Below, one piece after another: positions 3,451 through 53,904 of a stretch of DNA of 64,000 bases (positions within the stretch are counted from its first letter, which is position 1; each line of letters opens with the position of its first letter). This DNA comes from Mesorhizobium sp. WSM3626 (GTDB taxonomy: Bacteria > Pseudomonadota > Alphaproteobacteria > Rhizobiales > Rhizobiaceae). The notes under the pieces are model-generated. The model ran no database searches and was not told where the DNA came from. It worked only from the letters and a program-made list of their open reading frames with translations. The stretch covers positions 109,754 to 173,753 of the forward strand of contig NZ_AZUY01000008.1 of NCBI RefSeq assembly GCF_000513935.1, in the 5' to 3' direction. The translations under genes and the position numbers were made by a program.

Positions 3451-5025
3451 ATGAGCACCGTCAGCGCGGGGTTCCGGCTCGTACGGGCCGGTTGGGTGCT
3501 GGTGCGCGAGGGCGTCGTCGCTGCCTTGCCCGGCGAGGAACTGTCCGGCCTGCCGAAATTCGGCTGGCGGCTGGCGCGGCTGTTCACCCGCCGCCGCGCG
3601 CTTGCCTATGAGCGCAGCGACCGGCTGGCCAAGGCAGTGGTCCGGCTCGGCCCATCCTATGTCAAGCTTGGCCAGTTCCTGGCGACGCGGCCCGATGTCG
3701 TCGGCAACGACATGGCGCTCGATCTCGCCATGCTGCAGGACAAGATGCACACCTTCCCGACGGCCGAGGCGGTCGCGGCGATCGAAGCCTCGCTCGGACG
3801 CAAGCTCGGCGATCTCTACAAGCAATTCGGCGACCCGGTCGCCGCCGCCTCCATCGCTCAGGTCCATGCCGCTGAAACCGTCGATGGCGGCGTCGCCAGG
3901 AAGGTAGCGGTCAAGGTCATCCGGCCAGGCGTGCGCCGCCGCTTCTTCCACGACCTCGAAAGCTATTTCCTCGCCGCCCGCCTGCAGGAAAAATACATAC
4001 GGTCGTCGCGCCGGCTGAGGCCGGTCGAAGTAACCGAGACGCTGGCGCAGACCACCAGGATCGAGATGGACCTGCGCCTCGAAGCGGCCGCGCTCTCGGA
4101 ACTTGGCCAAAGCACCAGGGAAGACCCTGGCTTTCGCGTCCCTTCGGTGGACTGGGAACGCACCGGTCGCGACGTGCTGACCATGGAATGGGTCGACGGC
4201 GTCAAGATGAACGACCTCGCCGGCCTCGAAGCCGCCGGCCATGACCTGAAGGCGATCGCCGCCAATCTCATCCAGTCCTTCCTGCGCCATACGCTGCGCG
4301 ACGGCTTCTTCCATGCCGACATGCATCCGGGCAATTTGTTCGTCGAGGCAAACGGCACCATCGTCGCCGTCGATCTCGGTATTGCCGGACGCCTCGGCAA
4401 GAAGGAGCGCCGCTTCCTCGCCGAGATCCTCTACGGCTTCATCACACGCGACTATCTGCGCGTCGCCGAGGTGCATTTCGAAGCCGGCTATGTGCCGCGC
4501 CAGCACAACGTCTCCGCCTTCGCGCAGGCGATCCGTGCGATCGGCGAGCCGATCCACGGCCAGCCGGCCGAAACCATTTCTATGGCCAAGCTTTTGACGC
4601 TGCTGTTCGAGGTGACCGAACTCTTCGACATGGCGACACGGCCTGAATTGATCCTGCTGCAGAAAACGATGGTGGTGGTCGAGGGCGTGGCGCGTACGCT
4701 CGATCCGGCTTTCAACATGTGGAGGACCGCCGAGCCGGTAGTCAGTGGCTGGATAGCCGGTAACCTCGGGCCGCGCGGCTTGCTGACCGACGCGCGCGAC
4801 GGCGGCAAGGCGATGCTGGCGCTGATCCGCCAGGCGCCGGAACTCGCGGCCCGTACGGAACGGCTGTCGAGAGAGATCGACCTGATGGCCGAGCACGGCC
4901 TGCGCTTCGATGAGGCGACCGCCCGCGCCATCGGCAAGGCCGAGGCACGCTACAGCCGTTCTGGCCGTGTGGCGCTGTGGGTGATCGCGCTGACGCTGGT
5001 CTATATCGCCTGGAAGCTTCTTTAG
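3451..5025 (+). CDS. ubiB: UbiB-family atypical kinase for ubiquinone synthesis
   Basis: 524 aa. UbiB (ABC1/ADCK family) is a kinase-like ATPase that supports the membrane steps of ubiquinone synthesis. The family KxGQ motif is seen as VKLGQFLATRPD at about residues 71-82. The A-rich loop equivalent is AAASIAQVHAA, and the catalytic/metal loop reads FHADMHPGNLFV followed by VDLGIAGRL. A C-terminal hydrophobic helix (VALWVIALTLVYIAWKLL) anchors the protein. It sits directly behind ubiE, which supports the assignment. Confidence 0.95.
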   Translation: MSTVSAGFRLVRAGWVLVREGVVAALPGEELSGLPKFGWRLARLFTRRRALAYERSDRLAKAVVRLGPSYVKLGQFLATRPDVVGNDMALDLAMLQDKMHTFPTAEAVAAIEASLGRKLGDLYKQFGDPVAAASIAQVHAAETVDGGVARKVAVKVIRPGVRRRFFHDLESYFLAARLQEKYIRSSRRLRPVEVTETLAQTTRIEMDLRLEAAALSELGQSTREDPGFRVPSVDWERTGRDVLTMEWVDGVKMNDLAGLEAAGHDLKAIAANLIQSFLRHTLRDGFFHADMHPGNLFVEANGTIVAVDLGIAGRLGKKERRFLAEILYGFITRDYLRVAEVHFEAGYVPRQHNVSAFAQAIRAIGEPIHGQPAETISMAKLLTLLFEVTELFDMATRPELILLQKTMVVVEGVARTLDPAFNMWRTAEPVVSGWIAGNLGPRGLLTDARDGGKAMLALIRQAPELAARTERLSREIDLMAEHGLRFDEATARAIGKAEARYSRSGRVALWVIALTLVYIAWKLL

Positions 5026-5063
5026 CCCCGCCGCCGCTTCGAGTCCTGCGGCTTGCGGCAACT

Positions 5064-5113
5064 TGATTGCATTGCTATCATCGCTATCAGGTAAGACGAG
5101 TAGAGTGCAATCA
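5064..5113 (+). promoter_or_regulatory. FitAB-like operator half-sites upstream of coaBC
   Basis: The octamer TGCTATCA occurs at 5073-5080 and, with one change, as CGCTATCA at 5082-5089, in direct orientation nine bases apart. They are enclosed by a perfect 8-bp inverted repeat, TGATTGCA at 5064-5071 and TGCAATCA at 5106-5113, one base before the start codon. From memory, TGCTATCA is the half-site reported for the gonococcal FitAB toxin-antitoxin repressor. The downstream gene encodes a FitA-type domain, so self-repression is a reasonable inference, not shown. Confidence 0.45.
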
Positions 5114-5114
5114 T

Positions 5115-6587
5115 ATGGCCAGCATCACGATCCGCAACCTTGATGATGAGGTCAAGGAACTGCTGCGCCAGTTGGCGGCGGAAAACGATCGCTCCATGGA
5201 AGAACAGGCGCGGGTGATGATCCGGGCCGCTGTCGACGGCCAGATCGGCCCGGTTGGCCGTCTCGATCAGATCGAGAAAGCCCTCCTTGAACTCGCCAGT
5301 TCGCAAGGCGCCCCGACCGTGGCGTCGGCCTTGGCAGTCAAGAGCTTGCCGCGAGGCACACTTTCCAACAAGCGCATCCTGCTCATCATCGGCGGCGGCA
5401 TCGCCGCCTACAAGGCGCTCGATCTGATCCGCCGGCTGCGCGAGCGTGGTGCGGCGGTGCGGGTGGTCATGACGTCGGCGGCGCAGGAATTCGTGACAAC
5501 GCTGTCGGTCGGGACGCTCTCCGCCGACCATGTCTTCACCGACATGTTCGACCGCAACGATGAACACGATGTCGGCCACATCAGGCTATCGCGCGAGGCG
5601 GACCTCCTGGTGGTGGCGCCCGCAACCGCCGACCTGATGGCCAAGCTCGCCAATGGCCATGCCAACGATCTGGCCTCGACCGTGCTCATCGCCACCGACA
5701 AGCCGGTGCTGATGGCCCCGGCCATGAACCCGAAGATGTGGTCGCATCCCGCCACCCGCCGCAACCGCGCGACCTTGGGCAAGGACGGCATCACCTTCGT
5801 CGGCCCCGCCAAGGGTGAGATGGCCGAGAGCAACGAGGCCGGCGAAGGCCGCATGTCCGAACCGTTGGAGATCATCGCCGCGGTCGAGGCGCTGCTCGAT
5901 GCCGGCCCCAAGCCGCTGGCGGGGCGCAGGATCATCGTCACCTCAGGCCCGACGCACGAGCCGATCGATCCCGTGCGCTATATCGCCAACCGGTCGTCCG
6001 GCAAGCAGGGCCACGCCATCGCCGCGGCATTGGCAAAGCTTGGCGCCGATGTCCGACTTGTCTCCGGTCCCGTAAGCATTGCCGATCCAGCCGGCGTGAA
6101 AACCATCCATGTCGAGCGAGCGCAGGAAATGCGCGACGCGGTGGAACAGCTTCTGCCTGCCGACGCCGCGGTATTCGTCGCCGCCGTTGCAGACTGGCGC
6201 ACCGAGAATTCGGCCGGTGAGAAGATCAAGAAGGTCGCGGGCGAAGGCCCGCCGGTGCTGCGCATGGTCGAGAACCCCGACATCCTGGCTGGTGTCGGTC
6301 ACCACGAGCAGCGACCCGGCCTGGTCGTCGGCTTTGCCGCCGAGACGCAGGATCTCTTGCGCAACGCCGAGGCCAAGCTCAGCAAGAAAGGTGCCGATCT
6401 CATCGTCGCCAACGATGTGTCGCAGACCAGCGGCATCGGTCCTTCAGGCGTGATGGGCGGCGATCGCAACCGGGTCCGGATCGTGTCTAGGACCGGCATC
6501 GAGGAATGGCCTGAAATGACCAAGGACGAGGTGGCGGCGCGGCTCGCCGCGCTCATCGCCGCGCGGTTGAAAACGATCGTCGTCTGA
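5115..6587 (+). CDS. coaBC: FitA-type ribbon-helix-helix domain fused to bifunctional CoaBC
   Basis: 490 aa from the ATG at 5115; an upstream in-frame extension of 16 residues falls in the presumed operator and is rejected. CoaBC makes 4'-phosphopantetheine for CoA: ligation of cysteine to phosphopantothenate, then decarboxylation. Residues 1-45 form a FitA-like ribbon-helix-helix (MASITIRNLDDEVKELLRQL). A linker follows, then the flavin-dependent decarboxylase from about 86 (GGGIAAYKALD, VGHIRLSREADL with the catalytic His, PAMNPKMW) and the ligase (SGPTHEPIDPVRYIANRSSG, GFAAET). The usual CoaC ACG motif reads ESN here. No FitB/VapC toxin gene is adjacent. It is third in ubiE-ubiB-coaBC. Confidence 0.93.
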   Translation: MASITIRNLDDEVKELLRQLAAENDRSMEEQARVMIRAAVDGQIGPVGRLDQIEKALLELASSQGAPTVASALAVKSLPRGTLSNKRILLIIGGGIAAYKALDLIRRLRERGAAVRVVMTSAAQEFVTTLSVGTLSADHVFTDMFDRNDEHDVGHIRLSREADLLVVAPATADLMAKLANGHANDLASTVLIATDKPVLMAPAMNPKMWSHPATRRNRATLGKDGITFVGPAKGEMAESNEAGEGRMSEPLEIIAAVEALLDAGPKPLAGRRIIVTSGPTHEPIDPVRYIANRSSGKQGHAIAAALAKLGADVRLVSGPVSIADPAGVKTIHVERAQEMRDAVEQLLPADAAVFVAAVADWRTENSAGEKIKKVAGEGPPVLRMVENPDILAGVGHHEQRPGLVVGFAAETQDLLRNAEAKLSKKGADLIVANDVSQTSGIGPSGVMGGDRNRVRIVSRTGIEEWPEMTKDEVAARLAALIAARLKTIVV

Positions 6588-12640: not shown

Positions 12641-12737
12641 AACCCGGAGTCTATCTGGGCAAGAGCTGCAAGAAGGCAAGTTTCGGGTGGCGATCGGCGC
12701 CCCAAGAGGCGATATTCCGGCCCAAGGAGACAGGTCC

Positions 12738-13616
12738 ATGAGCACACACACGGCAGTCCTCAAGAAGGACATCACGCCCGAGGGCAGCGACTACGAGATC
12801 GTGCGCCGCGCCATCGAGAAGATCAGCCTCGACTATCGCGACCAGCCATCGCTGGAAGAACTGGCCGAGGAAGTCGGCGAGACGCCGACCGGCTTGCAGA
12901 AACTCTTCACCCGCTGGGCCGGCCTGTCACCCAAGGCTTTCCTGCAGGCGGTGACGCTGGACCATGCGCGCAAGCTGCTCGATTCCGGCATGCCGCTGCT
13001 CGAAACCTCATTCGAACTGGGCATGTCCGGTCCCGGCCGGCTGCACGACCTGTTCGTCACCCATGAAGCGATGTCGCCGGGCGACTACAAGACGCGCGGC
13101 GCTGGCCTCACCATCCGCTACGGCTATCACCCCTCCCCGTTCGGCACTGCCCTGATCATGGCCACGGATCGCGGGCTTGCCGGCCTCGCCTTCTGCGACG
13201 TCGGCGAGGAGCGCGCCGCCTTCGCCGACATGTCCGGCCGCTGGCCCAACGCCCTCTATGTCGAGGACAGGGAAGCGACAGGCCCTTATGCCGCGCGAAT
13301 CTTCGAGCCGACGCTGTGGCGCGCCGACCAGCCGCTGCACGTCGTCATGATCGGCACCGACTTTCAGGTCCGCGTCTGGGAAGCCTTGCTGCGGATCCCG
13401 ATGGGCAAGGCCCGCACCTATTCCTCGATCGCGGCCAGCATCGGCGCGCCGAGCGCCAGCCGCGCGGTCGGCGCCGCCAACGGCGCCAACCCGCTCTCTT
13501 TCGTGGTGCCTTGCCACCGCGCTATCGGCAAATCAGGCGATCTCACCGGCTATCACTGGGGCCTGACCCGCAAGCGCGCCATCCTCGGCTGGGAGGCGGG
13601 GCAGATTTCGTCCTGA
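12738..13616 (+). CDS. AraC-type HTH fused to O6-methylguanine-DNA methyltransferase (Ada-like, no N-terminal Ada domain)
   Basis: 292 aa from the ATG at 12738, preceded by AAGGAGA. Residues about 25-115 form an AraC HTH domain (LEELAEEVGETPTGLQKLF, MSGPGRLHDLFVTHEAMSPG). The second half is an alkyltransferase with the active-site PCHR (LSFVVPCHRAIGKSGDLTGY) and the IPMGKARTYSSIAASIG helix. It directly repairs alkylated guanine. The Cys-rich N-terminal domain of E. coli Ada that senses methylphosphotriesters is missing, so methylation-triggered activation as in Ada is not expected. Confidence 0.93.
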   Translation: MSTHTAVLKKDITPEGSDYEIVRRAIEKISLDYRDQPSLEELAEEVGETPTGLQKLFTRWAGLSPKAFLQAVTLDHARKLLDSGMPLLETSFELGMSGPGRLHDLFVTHEAMSPGDYKTRGAGLTIRYGYHPSPFGTALIMATDRGLAGLAFCDVGEERAAFADMSGRWPNALYVEDREATGPYAARIFEPTLWRADQPLHVVMIGTDFQVRVWEALLRIPMGKARTYSSIAASIGAPSASRAVGAANGANPLSFVVPCHRAIGKSGDLTGYHWGLTRKRAILGWEAGQISS

Positions 13617-51636: not shown

Positions 51637-53904
51637 TCAGCCGCCGCCAAGAATATCCAGGATCGAGGTCTGCCGCTTCTTGAGCCGACCGCCGACGCTG
51701 CCTGGCGGCACCGGGTGCCCGACCGAAGCCGTGGTGCCGCCATCCGCTGGCATGTTGAAGCCATCGGCATCGACGGTCTGGGCAGGCCGCGCCGCACGGA
51801 CCGGCGCCGGCGGTGCCGCCGCCTGCGCGGCCGGCGCCTGCTGTCCAACCGAAGCCGAGGGAACCGGTGCCGGTTGGTTGTTGTCGGCCGAGGGAATGTC
51901 GTCAGGCACGATGGTGTCCGCCGGTGTCGACTTCCAGGTGCCGGGCAGCGGCCGCACCGGCACGCCCTCATGCGCGGCGACCATGAATTCGTGCCAGGCC
52001 TGCGCCGGCAGCGCGCCGCCGGTAACCTTCTTCATCGCCGTGCCGTCATCATTGCCGAACCAAACGCCGGTGGTCAGATTGGCGGTGTAGCCGACGAACC
52101 AGGCGTCGCGCGAATTCTGGCTGGTGCCGGTCTTGCCGGCCGACGGCCAGGCGAAGGCCGCCTTCTTGGCGGTGCCGACCTCGACCGTCCCGGTCATCAT
52201 CGAATTCATCATGCCAACGATCTCGGGCTTGATCACGCGCGGTGCGCTGCCGCCAGCGCTGTCATAGAGCACCTTGCCGTCGGATGTCGTGACGCGGCGG
52301 ATGAAATGAATGTCGGGCTTGTAGCCGCCATTGGCGAAGGGCACATAGGCCGAGGTCAGTTCCAGCGGCGTCACTTCCGAGGTGCCGAGCGCGATCGAGG
52401 TGTTGGCCAGCAGGTCGGACTGGATGCCCATGCGGTGCGCGGCTTCCACCACCGCGTTCGGCCCGACTTCCATGGTCAACTGCGCGGCAACCGAGTTGAG
52501 CGACTTGGCCAGCGCCGTCGCCAAGGTGACCTTGCCAAAGTACTTGCCGCCGTAATTGTCGGGTGTCCAGTTGCCGATCTTGATCGGTGCGTCGTTGCGG
52601 ATGCTGTCGGGCGTGCGGCCGGCCTCGAGCGCAGCCATGTAGACGAACGGCTTGAACGCCGAGCCCGGCTGCCGGCGCGCCTCGGAGGCGCGGTCGAACT
52701 GGCTGGTCGAATAGTCATAGCCGCCGACCATGGCCCGCACCGCGCCGGAATCGTCGATCGACACCAGCGCGCCCTGGGTGACGTTGAGCTTCTTGCCGCT
52801 GTCGTCGATCAGCCGGCGGATCGACTGTTCGGCGAGTTTCTGCAGGTTCAGGTCTACGGTAGAATCGATGACGATATCGCCGCGCACATCGCCGATCAGG
52901 TCGGGCAACTCTTCCATGATTGTATCGGCGACGTAATTTTCCGAGCCGGTCCAGTAGGATGGCGAGCGCGTCGCCGGTGCGCTCAGCGCCGTCTTCAGCT
53001 CTTTCTCGCTGATCTTGCCCTCCTCGCGCATGGCGGCGAGCACCAGCTGCGAGCGCTCCTCGGCGGCCTTGGGATCACGCGCCGGCGATAGCCGCGACGG
53101 CGCCTTCAGCAGGCCCGCCAGGAGTGCCGCTTCCGACAAGGTGACATCGCGCGCGCTCTTGCCGAAATAACGGCGCGAGGCCGCCTCGACACCATAGGCA
53201 CCCGAGCCGAAATAGACCCGGTTGAGGTACATTTCGAGGATCTGGTCCTTGGTGTGCTTGTGCTCCAGCCACAGCGCCAGCAGCACCTCCTGCACCTTGC
53301 GTTCCAGCGTGCGGTCGGGCTTCAGGAAAAGGTTCTTGGCCAATTGCTGCGTCAGCGTCGAACCACCTTGCGAGAAGTGCCCGCCGATGAGGTTGGTCAC
53401 CATGGCGCGCGACAGGCCGATCGGATCGACACCGAAATGCGAATAGAAGCGGCGGTCCTCGATGGCGATCACCGCCTCGGGAATATAGGGCGACATTTCG
53501 TGCAGGCCGACCGCTTCGCCGCCGCTCATGCCGCGATTGGCCAGCAGCTGCCCGTCGGCCGAGACGATCTTGATGTTGGGCGCACGGTCGGGGATCGACC
53601 AGGTCGTGGCCGCGGGCATCTTGGCGCCGTAGTAGATAACGACGCCCGCCACCGCGATGCCGCCCCATATGGCGAGCACGAAACACCAGTAGACCAGCCG
53701 GCCGAGCACGCCGAACAGGCCGCGTCCACTCCCGCCGCGCCTCCCCCGCGACGATTTCCCCTTCGATGATTTGCGTTTGGCGGAGGCTTTGCGATTGCTC
53801 GGCACGACGCGGTCCTCCTCGCTCACCGAAAGACCCGTCTGGGATTTCGCCCGTGGCGGTCCCTCGAAGCTGGGCTCGATGCGACTGTCTCTGCGGTTCG
53901 CCAT
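51637..53904 (-). CDS. bifunctional class A penicillin-binding protein (PBP1A family)
   Basis: 755 aa. A basic cytoplasmic N-terminus and one membrane helix (GRLVYWCFVLAIWGGIAVAG, about 70-90). The glycosyltransferase domain shows AIEDRRFYSHFGVDPIGLSR and GGSTLTQQLAKNLFLKPDRT. The transpeptidase motifs are RQPGSAFKPFVYM (SxxK), AKSLNSVAAQL (SxN) and PSAGKTGTSQNSRDAWF (KTG). A Pro/Ala-rich tail of about 90 residues ends the protein. Polymerises and crosslinks peptidoglycan. Confidence 0.95.
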   Translation of the reverse strand: MANRRDSRIEPSFEGPPRAKSQTGLSVSEEDRVVPSNRKASAKRKSSKGKSSRGRRGGSGRGLFGVLGRLVYWCFVLAIWGGIAVAGVVIYYGAKMPAATTWSIPDRAPNIKIVSADGQLLANRGMSGGEAVGLHEMSPYIPEAVIAIEDRRFYSHFGVDPIGLSRAMVTNLIGGHFSQGGSTLTQQLAKNLFLKPDRTLERKVQEVLLALWLEHKHTKDQILEMYLNRVYFGSGAYGVEAASRRYFGKSARDVTLSEAALLAGLLKAPSRLSPARDPKAAEERSQLVLAAMREEGKISEKELKTALSAPATRSPSYWTGSENYVADTIMEELPDLIGDVRGDIVIDSTVDLNLQKLAEQSIRRLIDDSGKKLNVTQGALVSIDDSGAVRAMVGGYDYSTSQFDRASEARRQPGSAFKPFVYMAALEAGRTPDSIRNDAPIKIGNWTPDNYGGKYFGKVTLATALAKSLNSVAAQLTMEVGPNAVVEAAHRMGIQSDLLANTSIALGTSEVTPLELTSAYVPFANGGYKPDIHFIRRVTTSDGKVLYDSAGGSAPRVIKPEIVGMMNSMMTGTVEVGTAKKAAFAWPSAGKTGTSQNSRDAWFVGYTANLTTGVWFGNDDGTAMKKVTGGALPAQAWHEFMVAAHEGVPVRPLPGTWKSTPADTIVPDDIPSADNNQPAPVPSASVGQQAPAAQAAAPPAPVRAARPAQTVDADGFNMPADGGTTASVGHPVPPGSVGGRLKKRQTSILDILGGG

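Follow-up and report, generated by a model that had tools for sequence, protein, structure and literature searches.

Why does an enzyme of coenzyme A synthesis begin with the DNA-binding domain of an antitoxin, and is that domain still at work? The question is raised by a coaBC gene in the window (the whole stretch of DNA analysed here, 64,000 nucleotides from Mesorhizobium sp. WSM3626), in which a FitA-like ribbon-helix-helix (RHH) precedes both enzyme domains. Judging from sequence comparisons, the protein is likely (probability roughly 0.75) to be a self-regulating trigger enzyme that arose from a domesticated antitoxin, in which the RHH would bind octamers upstream of the gene and CoaBC would repress its own gene.

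The fused gene (5115–6587, + strand) is an unbroken frame that runs from an ATG at 5115 to a stop codon at 6585–6587 and encodes 490 amino acids, arranged as RHH, linker, CoaC and CoaB. The RHH (residues 1–41; 5115–5237, +) is matched by the Pfam family FitA-like_RHH (PF22513) over residues 2–40, with an E value of 2.2e-14 and 53.6 bits against a cut-off of 27. It is followed by a fast-evolving linker (residues 42–82; 5238–5360, +), by the FMN-dependent phosphopantothenoylcysteine decarboxylase CoaC (residues 86–257; 5370–5885, +; Flavoprotein, PF02441), and then by the phosphopantothenate-cysteine ligase CoaB (residues 268–456; 5916–6482, +; DFP, PF04127), with both Pfam matches above their cut-offs. 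The NCBIfam coaBC model TIGR00521 spans residues 83–479 (407.5 bits against a cut-off of 219.7). An in-frame fusion of a FitA RHH to complete CoaC and CoaB had been proposed in an earlier sequence-only reading of the window; Pfam, TIGR00521 and the open frame agree on it, and it is well supported across genomes. The protein carries HIRLSR at 155 and PAMN at 202 in CoaC, IANRSSG, and KIKK at 370 in CoaB, and we take all four, with KIKK being of the form KXKK, to be conserved catalytic motifs of CoaBC. Cysteine is absent from all 490 residues. The place of what is presumably the catalytic cysteine of E. coli CoaC seems to be held by the serine of AESNEAGEGRM, and the consensus there in a 49-row alignment is ESGEAG. 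On its left the locus is bordered by a ubiB-like gene (3451–5025, +), an open reading frame (ORF) named by sequence recognition rather than by family search. Elsewhere in the window, an ORF at 12687–13616 (+) looks by eye like an Ada-like fusion of an alkyltransferase to an AraC-type DNA-binding domain, another candidate regulator-enzyme.

An AlphaFold model of the monomer, built on a 49-row alignment (mean pLDDT 79.6, pTM 0.49), places helices at residues 11–23 and 28–40, followed by a linker of mostly low pLDDT, with a predicted helix at 49–61 and low confidence at 61–77, and then by the enzyme. Residues 2–7, where the ribbon is expected, came out helical rather than as a strand in this model, and a 61-residue RHH modelled without an alignment gave one long helix and a second helix. 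A single-chain search with the RHH against solved structures returned weak matches only. A profile built from eight such RHHs likewise picks up FitA chains of the PDB weakly (2h1o_E, E 0.0081; 2bsq_E, E 0.017) and scores higher against one designed repeat protein and one other antitoxin; the FitA-type assignment therefore rests on Pfam.

The interval upstream of coaBC is informative in relatives. Among 146 genomes of the genus, one (G024) lacks a coaBC match, and the interval was read in all 145 others. RHH-CoaBC fusions are present in 103, an unfused RHH gene with a toxin-sized gene in 34, and neither in 8, counts that are not independent events because the genomes are related. An RHH gene thus stands at the locus in 137/145 genomes, and RHH control must be dispensable, given the eight genomes without one. 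A ubiB match lies upstream in 143/145. The 103 fusions comprise 90 of the window's class, without a clear antitoxin tail, and 13 that keep antitoxin-like tails. The sequence-only reading could not reveal the whole antitoxin-toxin modules that occupy this place in relatives, or the repeated rise of new fusions there. In each of 52 modules, from within and outside the genus, an ORF of 123–144 residues lies between the antitoxin and coaBC and ends 3–35 bp before the CoaBC core. Pfam identifies a PIN domain in 5/5 of the toxins checked and a FitA-like RHH in 3/3 antitoxins, and a profile built from the five PIN toxins matches all 52 module ORFs (worst E 1.4e-10). One module type (L025, L027, L028, L030, L034 and others) is preceded by a second, short RHH gene of about 69 residues (MARITVRN...), which occupies the promoter-proximal place and looks like an orphan antitoxin with its tail cut. 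Additionally, in L159 and L161 an additional RHH gene lies some way upstream of the fused RHH-CoaBC gene, where a module may be entering beside the fusion.

Against these module antitoxins, the best matches of the window protein's N-terminus cover residues 1–40 to 1–65 at 42–60% identity, and no clear C-terminal toxin-binding tail was recognised in the comparison. Tail-keeping fusions match module antitoxins up to, or close to, the antitoxin ends. Within the window's class, L112 weakly matches a tail-bearing antitoxin (38% over residues 1–79), possibly a trace of the tail. The earlier claim that no toxin partner is near was borne out, in that none of the eight PIN matches in the genome lies on the window's contig. 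On another contig of the same genome (L283; G000 contig C35, ~52310–52935), a separate FitA-like antitoxin has a PIN gene just downstream, and a FitAB-like module therefore coexists with the fused CoaBC in this genome.

The fusion begins with ATG in 89 of the 90 loci of the window's class and with GTG in the other, and in 51/90 there is no other in-frame start upstream. In the window, position 5064, given by the sequence-only reading as the left end of the feature, opens both an in-frame stop codon and the predicted operator described below. An in-frame TTG at 5067 was considered and dropped as a start, being inside that operator, with ATG 5115 kept in relatives. The sequence-only reading held that no separate CoaBC start lies at the join. 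No such start is conserved: the linker has no in-frame ATG in 75/90, and the ATG of the remaining 15 falls anywhere from 20 codons before the core to the core's first codon. With GTG and TTG counted as well as ATG, 62/90 have an in-frame start codon in the linker, but a Shine-Dalgarno-like motif lies 5–15 bases upstream of such a start in just 6/90, each at a different place, and a conserved start at the join was dropped as a candidate. As a statement about the window itself the claim did not hold entirely, since the window is one of these six, with a GTG at 5319 (+) behind a Shine-Dalgarno-like motif, not conserved, from which an additional short product is possible.

The region before the start codon carries a predicted –35 box (TTGCGG, 5053–5058, +) and a predicted –10 box (TATCAT, 5076–5081, +). 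CTTG together with a –10 box TATCAT or TATCGT is found in 85/90 loci of the window's class, with a spacer of 17 in 83 and 16 in 2. Overlapping the –10 box is the predicted operator (5064–5080), an 8-1-8 inverted repeat TGATTGCA-T-TGCTATCA whose second arm, TGCTATCA, occupies 5073–5080. A third conserved octamer, TGCAATCA (5106–5113), ends 1 nt before the ATG and forms an inverted repeat with TGATTGCA at 5064–5071; 79/90 loci have it exact at that distance. In an upstream alignment of 88 loci (the 90 without L018 and L081), the conserved footprint reads CTTG, TGATTGCATTGCTATCATTGC and then GTGCAATCA adjoining the ATG, and exact copies of TGCTATCA, TGATTGCA and TGCAATCA are present in 80, 77 and 77 loci, respectively. 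Of the octamers singled out earlier, TGCTATCA and the inverted repeat TGATTGCA/TGCAATCA are thus conserved, but CGCTATCA (5082–5089) is poorly so, being exact in only 3 loci, and was ruled out as a conserved half-site. The sequence-only reading had also treated loss of the octamers from fusion-bearing relatives as grounds for rejecting it; this loss was not observed. TGCTATCA had been taken to be the half-site of gonococcal FitAB, and a literature search found no support for this identity.

The paired operator is rare in the genome and common at the locus. With up to one mismatch, TGATWGCANTGCWATCA has a single site in the 6.28-Mb genome, at 5064–5080 and without mismatch; chance, with equal bases, would give 0.006 exact sites, or 0.26 if one mismatch is allowed. 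Repeats of the 8-1-8 form (at least 7/8 arm positions matching, no more than 100 bases ahead of the RHH gene) were counted against shuffled sequences; L131, with fewer than 90 bases upstream, is missing from the upstream tests. They are found in 81/90 loci of the window's class (shuffle mean 5.1), 5/13 tail-keeping fusions of the genus (0.4), 12/19 fusions of other genera (0.9) and 12/17 loci of families f35 and f16 (0.9). Modules have them in 33/33 cases in the genus (2.2; one further module was too short) and in 11/12 in other genera (0.6). None was found in ten loci without an RHH (0.6); two of the ten, L040 and L167, lie outside the genus, and L037–L039 were left out. A gap of 1 is the commonest inverted-repeat spacing in fusions and modules alike, and 12/16 f35 loci have two separate 8-1-8 repeats with at least 6 arm matches (for example, TGATTGCA-N-TGCAATCA and TGATAGCA-N-CGCTATCA). 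A predicted operator in the fusion's own promoter is well supported by these counts, and the –10 box accounts for part of the footprint.

Across 191 loci, the octamer class tracks residues 2 and 3 of the RHH, with counts that relatedness inflates. Loci with 'AS' at these residues have TGCAATCA or its complement TGATTGCA in 121/123 cases, and those with 'GT', 'ST' or 'AT' in 4/39; loci with 'AR' have TGCTGTCA or TGACAGCA in 13/14. The window's class contains two 'AN' loci, which carry TGCTATCA or TGATAGCA and lack TGCAATCA. The remaining 13 loci fall into nine small, mixed classes, with TGCAATCA or its complement in 2/3 'GA', 1/2 'GS', 1/1 'AL' and none of the rest. This link between octamer class and RHH residues offers a ready test of RHH recognition.

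Selective constraint was estimated as pooled omega in the window's class (90 loci; 1437 pairs whose cores are moderately diverged, and 958 equal-length pairs for the linker). RHH codons 2–41 have a value of 0.053 and the CoaBC core one of 0.094, against 0.41 in the linker. Over nine stretches of the core, each 40 codons long, omega ranges from 0.044 to 0.154, and the RHH value lies inside this range rather than below it; constraint on the RHH therefore equals that on the best-preserved segments of the enzyme. RHH residues A2 and I4–L9 are invariant in 90/90 loci, and S3 is kept in 88/90. Such constraint would not be expected of a dead RHH remnant.

How the fusions arose can be read in part from those that keep a tail. 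They align with modules on both sides of a gap that takes out the toxin gene completely or almost completely, and the edges of the gap differ. In module positions, with the antitoxin start at 121, the gap runs from 362 to 801 in L025, 326 to 791 in L026, about 349 to 782 in L121 and L122, 373 to 805 in L120 and L124, and 369 to 818 in L033; L159, from outside the genus, aligns with modules in part only. The 13 tail-keeping genus fusions thus resemble modules that have lost their toxins at different edges, and fusion has therefore recurred. By antitoxin type and RHH tree, at least five separate fusions can be counted in the genus (L025; L026, L104, L105 and L107; L033; L109, L120 and L124; L117 and L121–L123), and L150 is a further fusion in another genus. 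In the genus fusions, the DNA before the gap is 67–86% identical to the nearest module, and none of them is therefore recent. No unfused antitoxin without a toxin was found among the loci read, which hints that in-frame fusion, beyond toxin loss, is favoured.

On a tree of CoaBC cores (211 rows), the fused, module and empty states need at least 41 changes, with 95 of 207 inner branches weak; recombination at the locus would raise this number. A tree of 154 RHHs splits in two, with weak support (76, from 41 columns). One side holds every tail-less fusion but L151, plus the module antitoxin L143 and the tail-bearing fusion L159; the other holds the modules and the remaining tail-bearing fusions. 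This arrangement fits an old tail-less fusion that may have been locally replaced by modules and then re-made from them, a direction that we infer. In L104 and L107, judged by eye, the linker seems to consist of pieces of the tails of two antitoxin types in series, which two rounds of replacement and fusion would explain.

Outside the genus, fusions are present in other genera and in two more families of the order. Residues 1–82 have 214 database relatives, in a search that used whole-protein length, such that its length limits exclude plain antitoxins; among the 120 listed, 117 have a flavoprotein domain together with PF22513. Full-length matches were listed in at least 13 further genera among 394 genomes of the family. 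At the level of the order, the first 130 residues were searched against 397 genomes, 18 of them from f35, giving at least 24 matches through the RHH: 7 in the gene's own family (f1), 16 in f35 and 1 in f16. The 16 f35 loci were confirmed as fused, with [MV]ASLT[IV]RK, and a locus chosen as unfused (L278) has no RHH. Another f16 genome (G593) matches from residue 12, and the profile found no RHH in its locus, L280. Among the matches listed from 385 genomes at the level of the class, none outside the order starts before residue 45, in a search that diverged RHHs would escape. Loci outside the genus were mostly chosen as fused or as having extra RHH matches and form a biased sample. A FitA-type RHH also opens two other large proteins, P0068 and P0096 (PF27151; amidohydrolase PF01979/PF07969), and RHH fusion of this type is therefore not confined to CoaBC.

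Some of these observations could be explained without autoregulation. Deletion of the toxin from a module whose promoter coaBC had come to use might have left a fusion that merely keeps coaBC translated, with the RHH idle. The closeness of the toxin ORF to the CoaBC core in all 52 modules means that coaBC may need the module promoter and be translationally coupled, and a native-looking ATG remains at the join in some fusions. However, an idle RHH accords poorly with an omega of 0.053 across 90 genomes and with octamers that are retained together with the RHH and matched to its class, and we consider this account improbable. The fused antitoxin might instead still neutralise PIN toxins encoded elsewhere in the genome or on mobile DNA. 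Most or all of the antitoxin tail is present in several fusions, the window's genome has its eight PIN matches, and L112 retains its weak 79-residue match to a tail-bearing antitoxin. In the window's class, however, the linker is weakly constrained (omega 0.41) and the DNA-binding half is what stays, which makes such a role very unlikely there.

A DNA-binding RHH need not act on its own gene. RHH domains commonly act in trans, and this one might control other genes or tether CoaBC to DNA for another purpose; yet the paired operator (counted as the pair, not as single octamers) occurs once in the genome, at coaBC, and we give this possibility little credence. Finally, the conserved upstream bases might consist of promoter and ribosome-binding signals only, with the gene not autoregulated. 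TATCAT does fit a –10 box, and the third octamer sits at the start codon. Such signals leave unexplained, however, the TGATTGCA arm outside the –10 box and the way in which octamer class follows RHH class, and this explanation appears remote.

The preferred reading, a self-regulating enzyme derived from an antitoxin, would operate as follows. The catalytic part would be an ordinary CoaBC, and its N-terminal FitA-type RHH would pair with that of another subunit to bind octamers in its own promoter. The octamers overlap the –10 box and the start codon, and binding should block transcription, such that rising CoaBC would lower its own transcription. The sequence-only reading had likewise proposed an enzyme that might repress its own gene, perhaps under the influence of flavin, CTP or a CoA intermediate. 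In the excerpts consulted, antitoxin complexes block transcription at their own promoters (PMC5086665; PMC3384007). Starting from the computed fusion, constraint and operator, we infer DNA binding, repression, assembly on the CoaBC dodecamer, and control by substrates or coenzyme A. As for a trigger enzyme, the sequence has a DNA-binding domain in the enzyme's own chain and a predicted operator in its own promoter. The gene would have originated from a FitAB/VapBC-like module between ubiB and coaBC by loss of the toxin gene, which brought the antitoxin in frame with coaBC; operator and repression would then have been kept as the toxin-binding tail decayed. More tentatively, and with doubt prevailing, the coaBC promoter in this order may be a standing slot for an antitoxin-type repressor, supplied by a whole module or a fused antitoxin, and the fused dodecamer, with up to six RHH pairs, could be a coenzyme A homeostat whose grip on the operator varies with CoA thioesters or pathway intermediates. 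The locus offers a concrete, testable transcriptional control for coaBC and makes the steps towards a self-regulating enzyme traceable in living relatives, from a module next to an essential gene, through loss of the toxin and fusion in frame, to tail loss and a kept operator. It also suggests a lasting use for antitoxins once their toxins are gone.

The RHH-CoaBC architecture is already present in protein databases, where source names, if given, mention the enzyme only. A literature search, outside which most subscription journals lie, found no paper on CoaBC or phosphopantothenoylcysteine enzymes with an antitoxin or ribbon-helix-helix fusion. The bat/bto module of Bradyrhizobium japonicum was reportedly first described by Miclea in 2010. 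It was considered for a possible link on the basis of partial texts (PMC8436566; PMC6902015). The top structural match of the AlphaFold model is the same bifunctional enzyme, CoaBC of Mycobacterium smegmatis (6TGV); its match, which starts at residue 84 of the query, includes no RHH, and the portions of its literature that were available do not mention a transcriptional role. FitAB of Neisseria gonorrhoeae shares the Pfam RHH family and, according to the available part of one report, binds its own promoter through the RHH of FitA (PMC5086665); unlike FitA, the window protein lacks both a toxin partner and a clear toxin-binding tail, and is fused to an enzyme. The nearest parallel in kind is PutA, as far as the consulted extract describes it, which bears an N-terminal RHH on a bifunctional enzyme and represses its own gene (PMC5879082). 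Fused CoaBC has the same N-terminal arrangement and is predicted to repress itself likewise, although PutA is a different enzyme in a different pathway. In contrast to PutA, the RHH of fused CoaBC belongs to the antitoxin type, and its locus also houses unfused modules.
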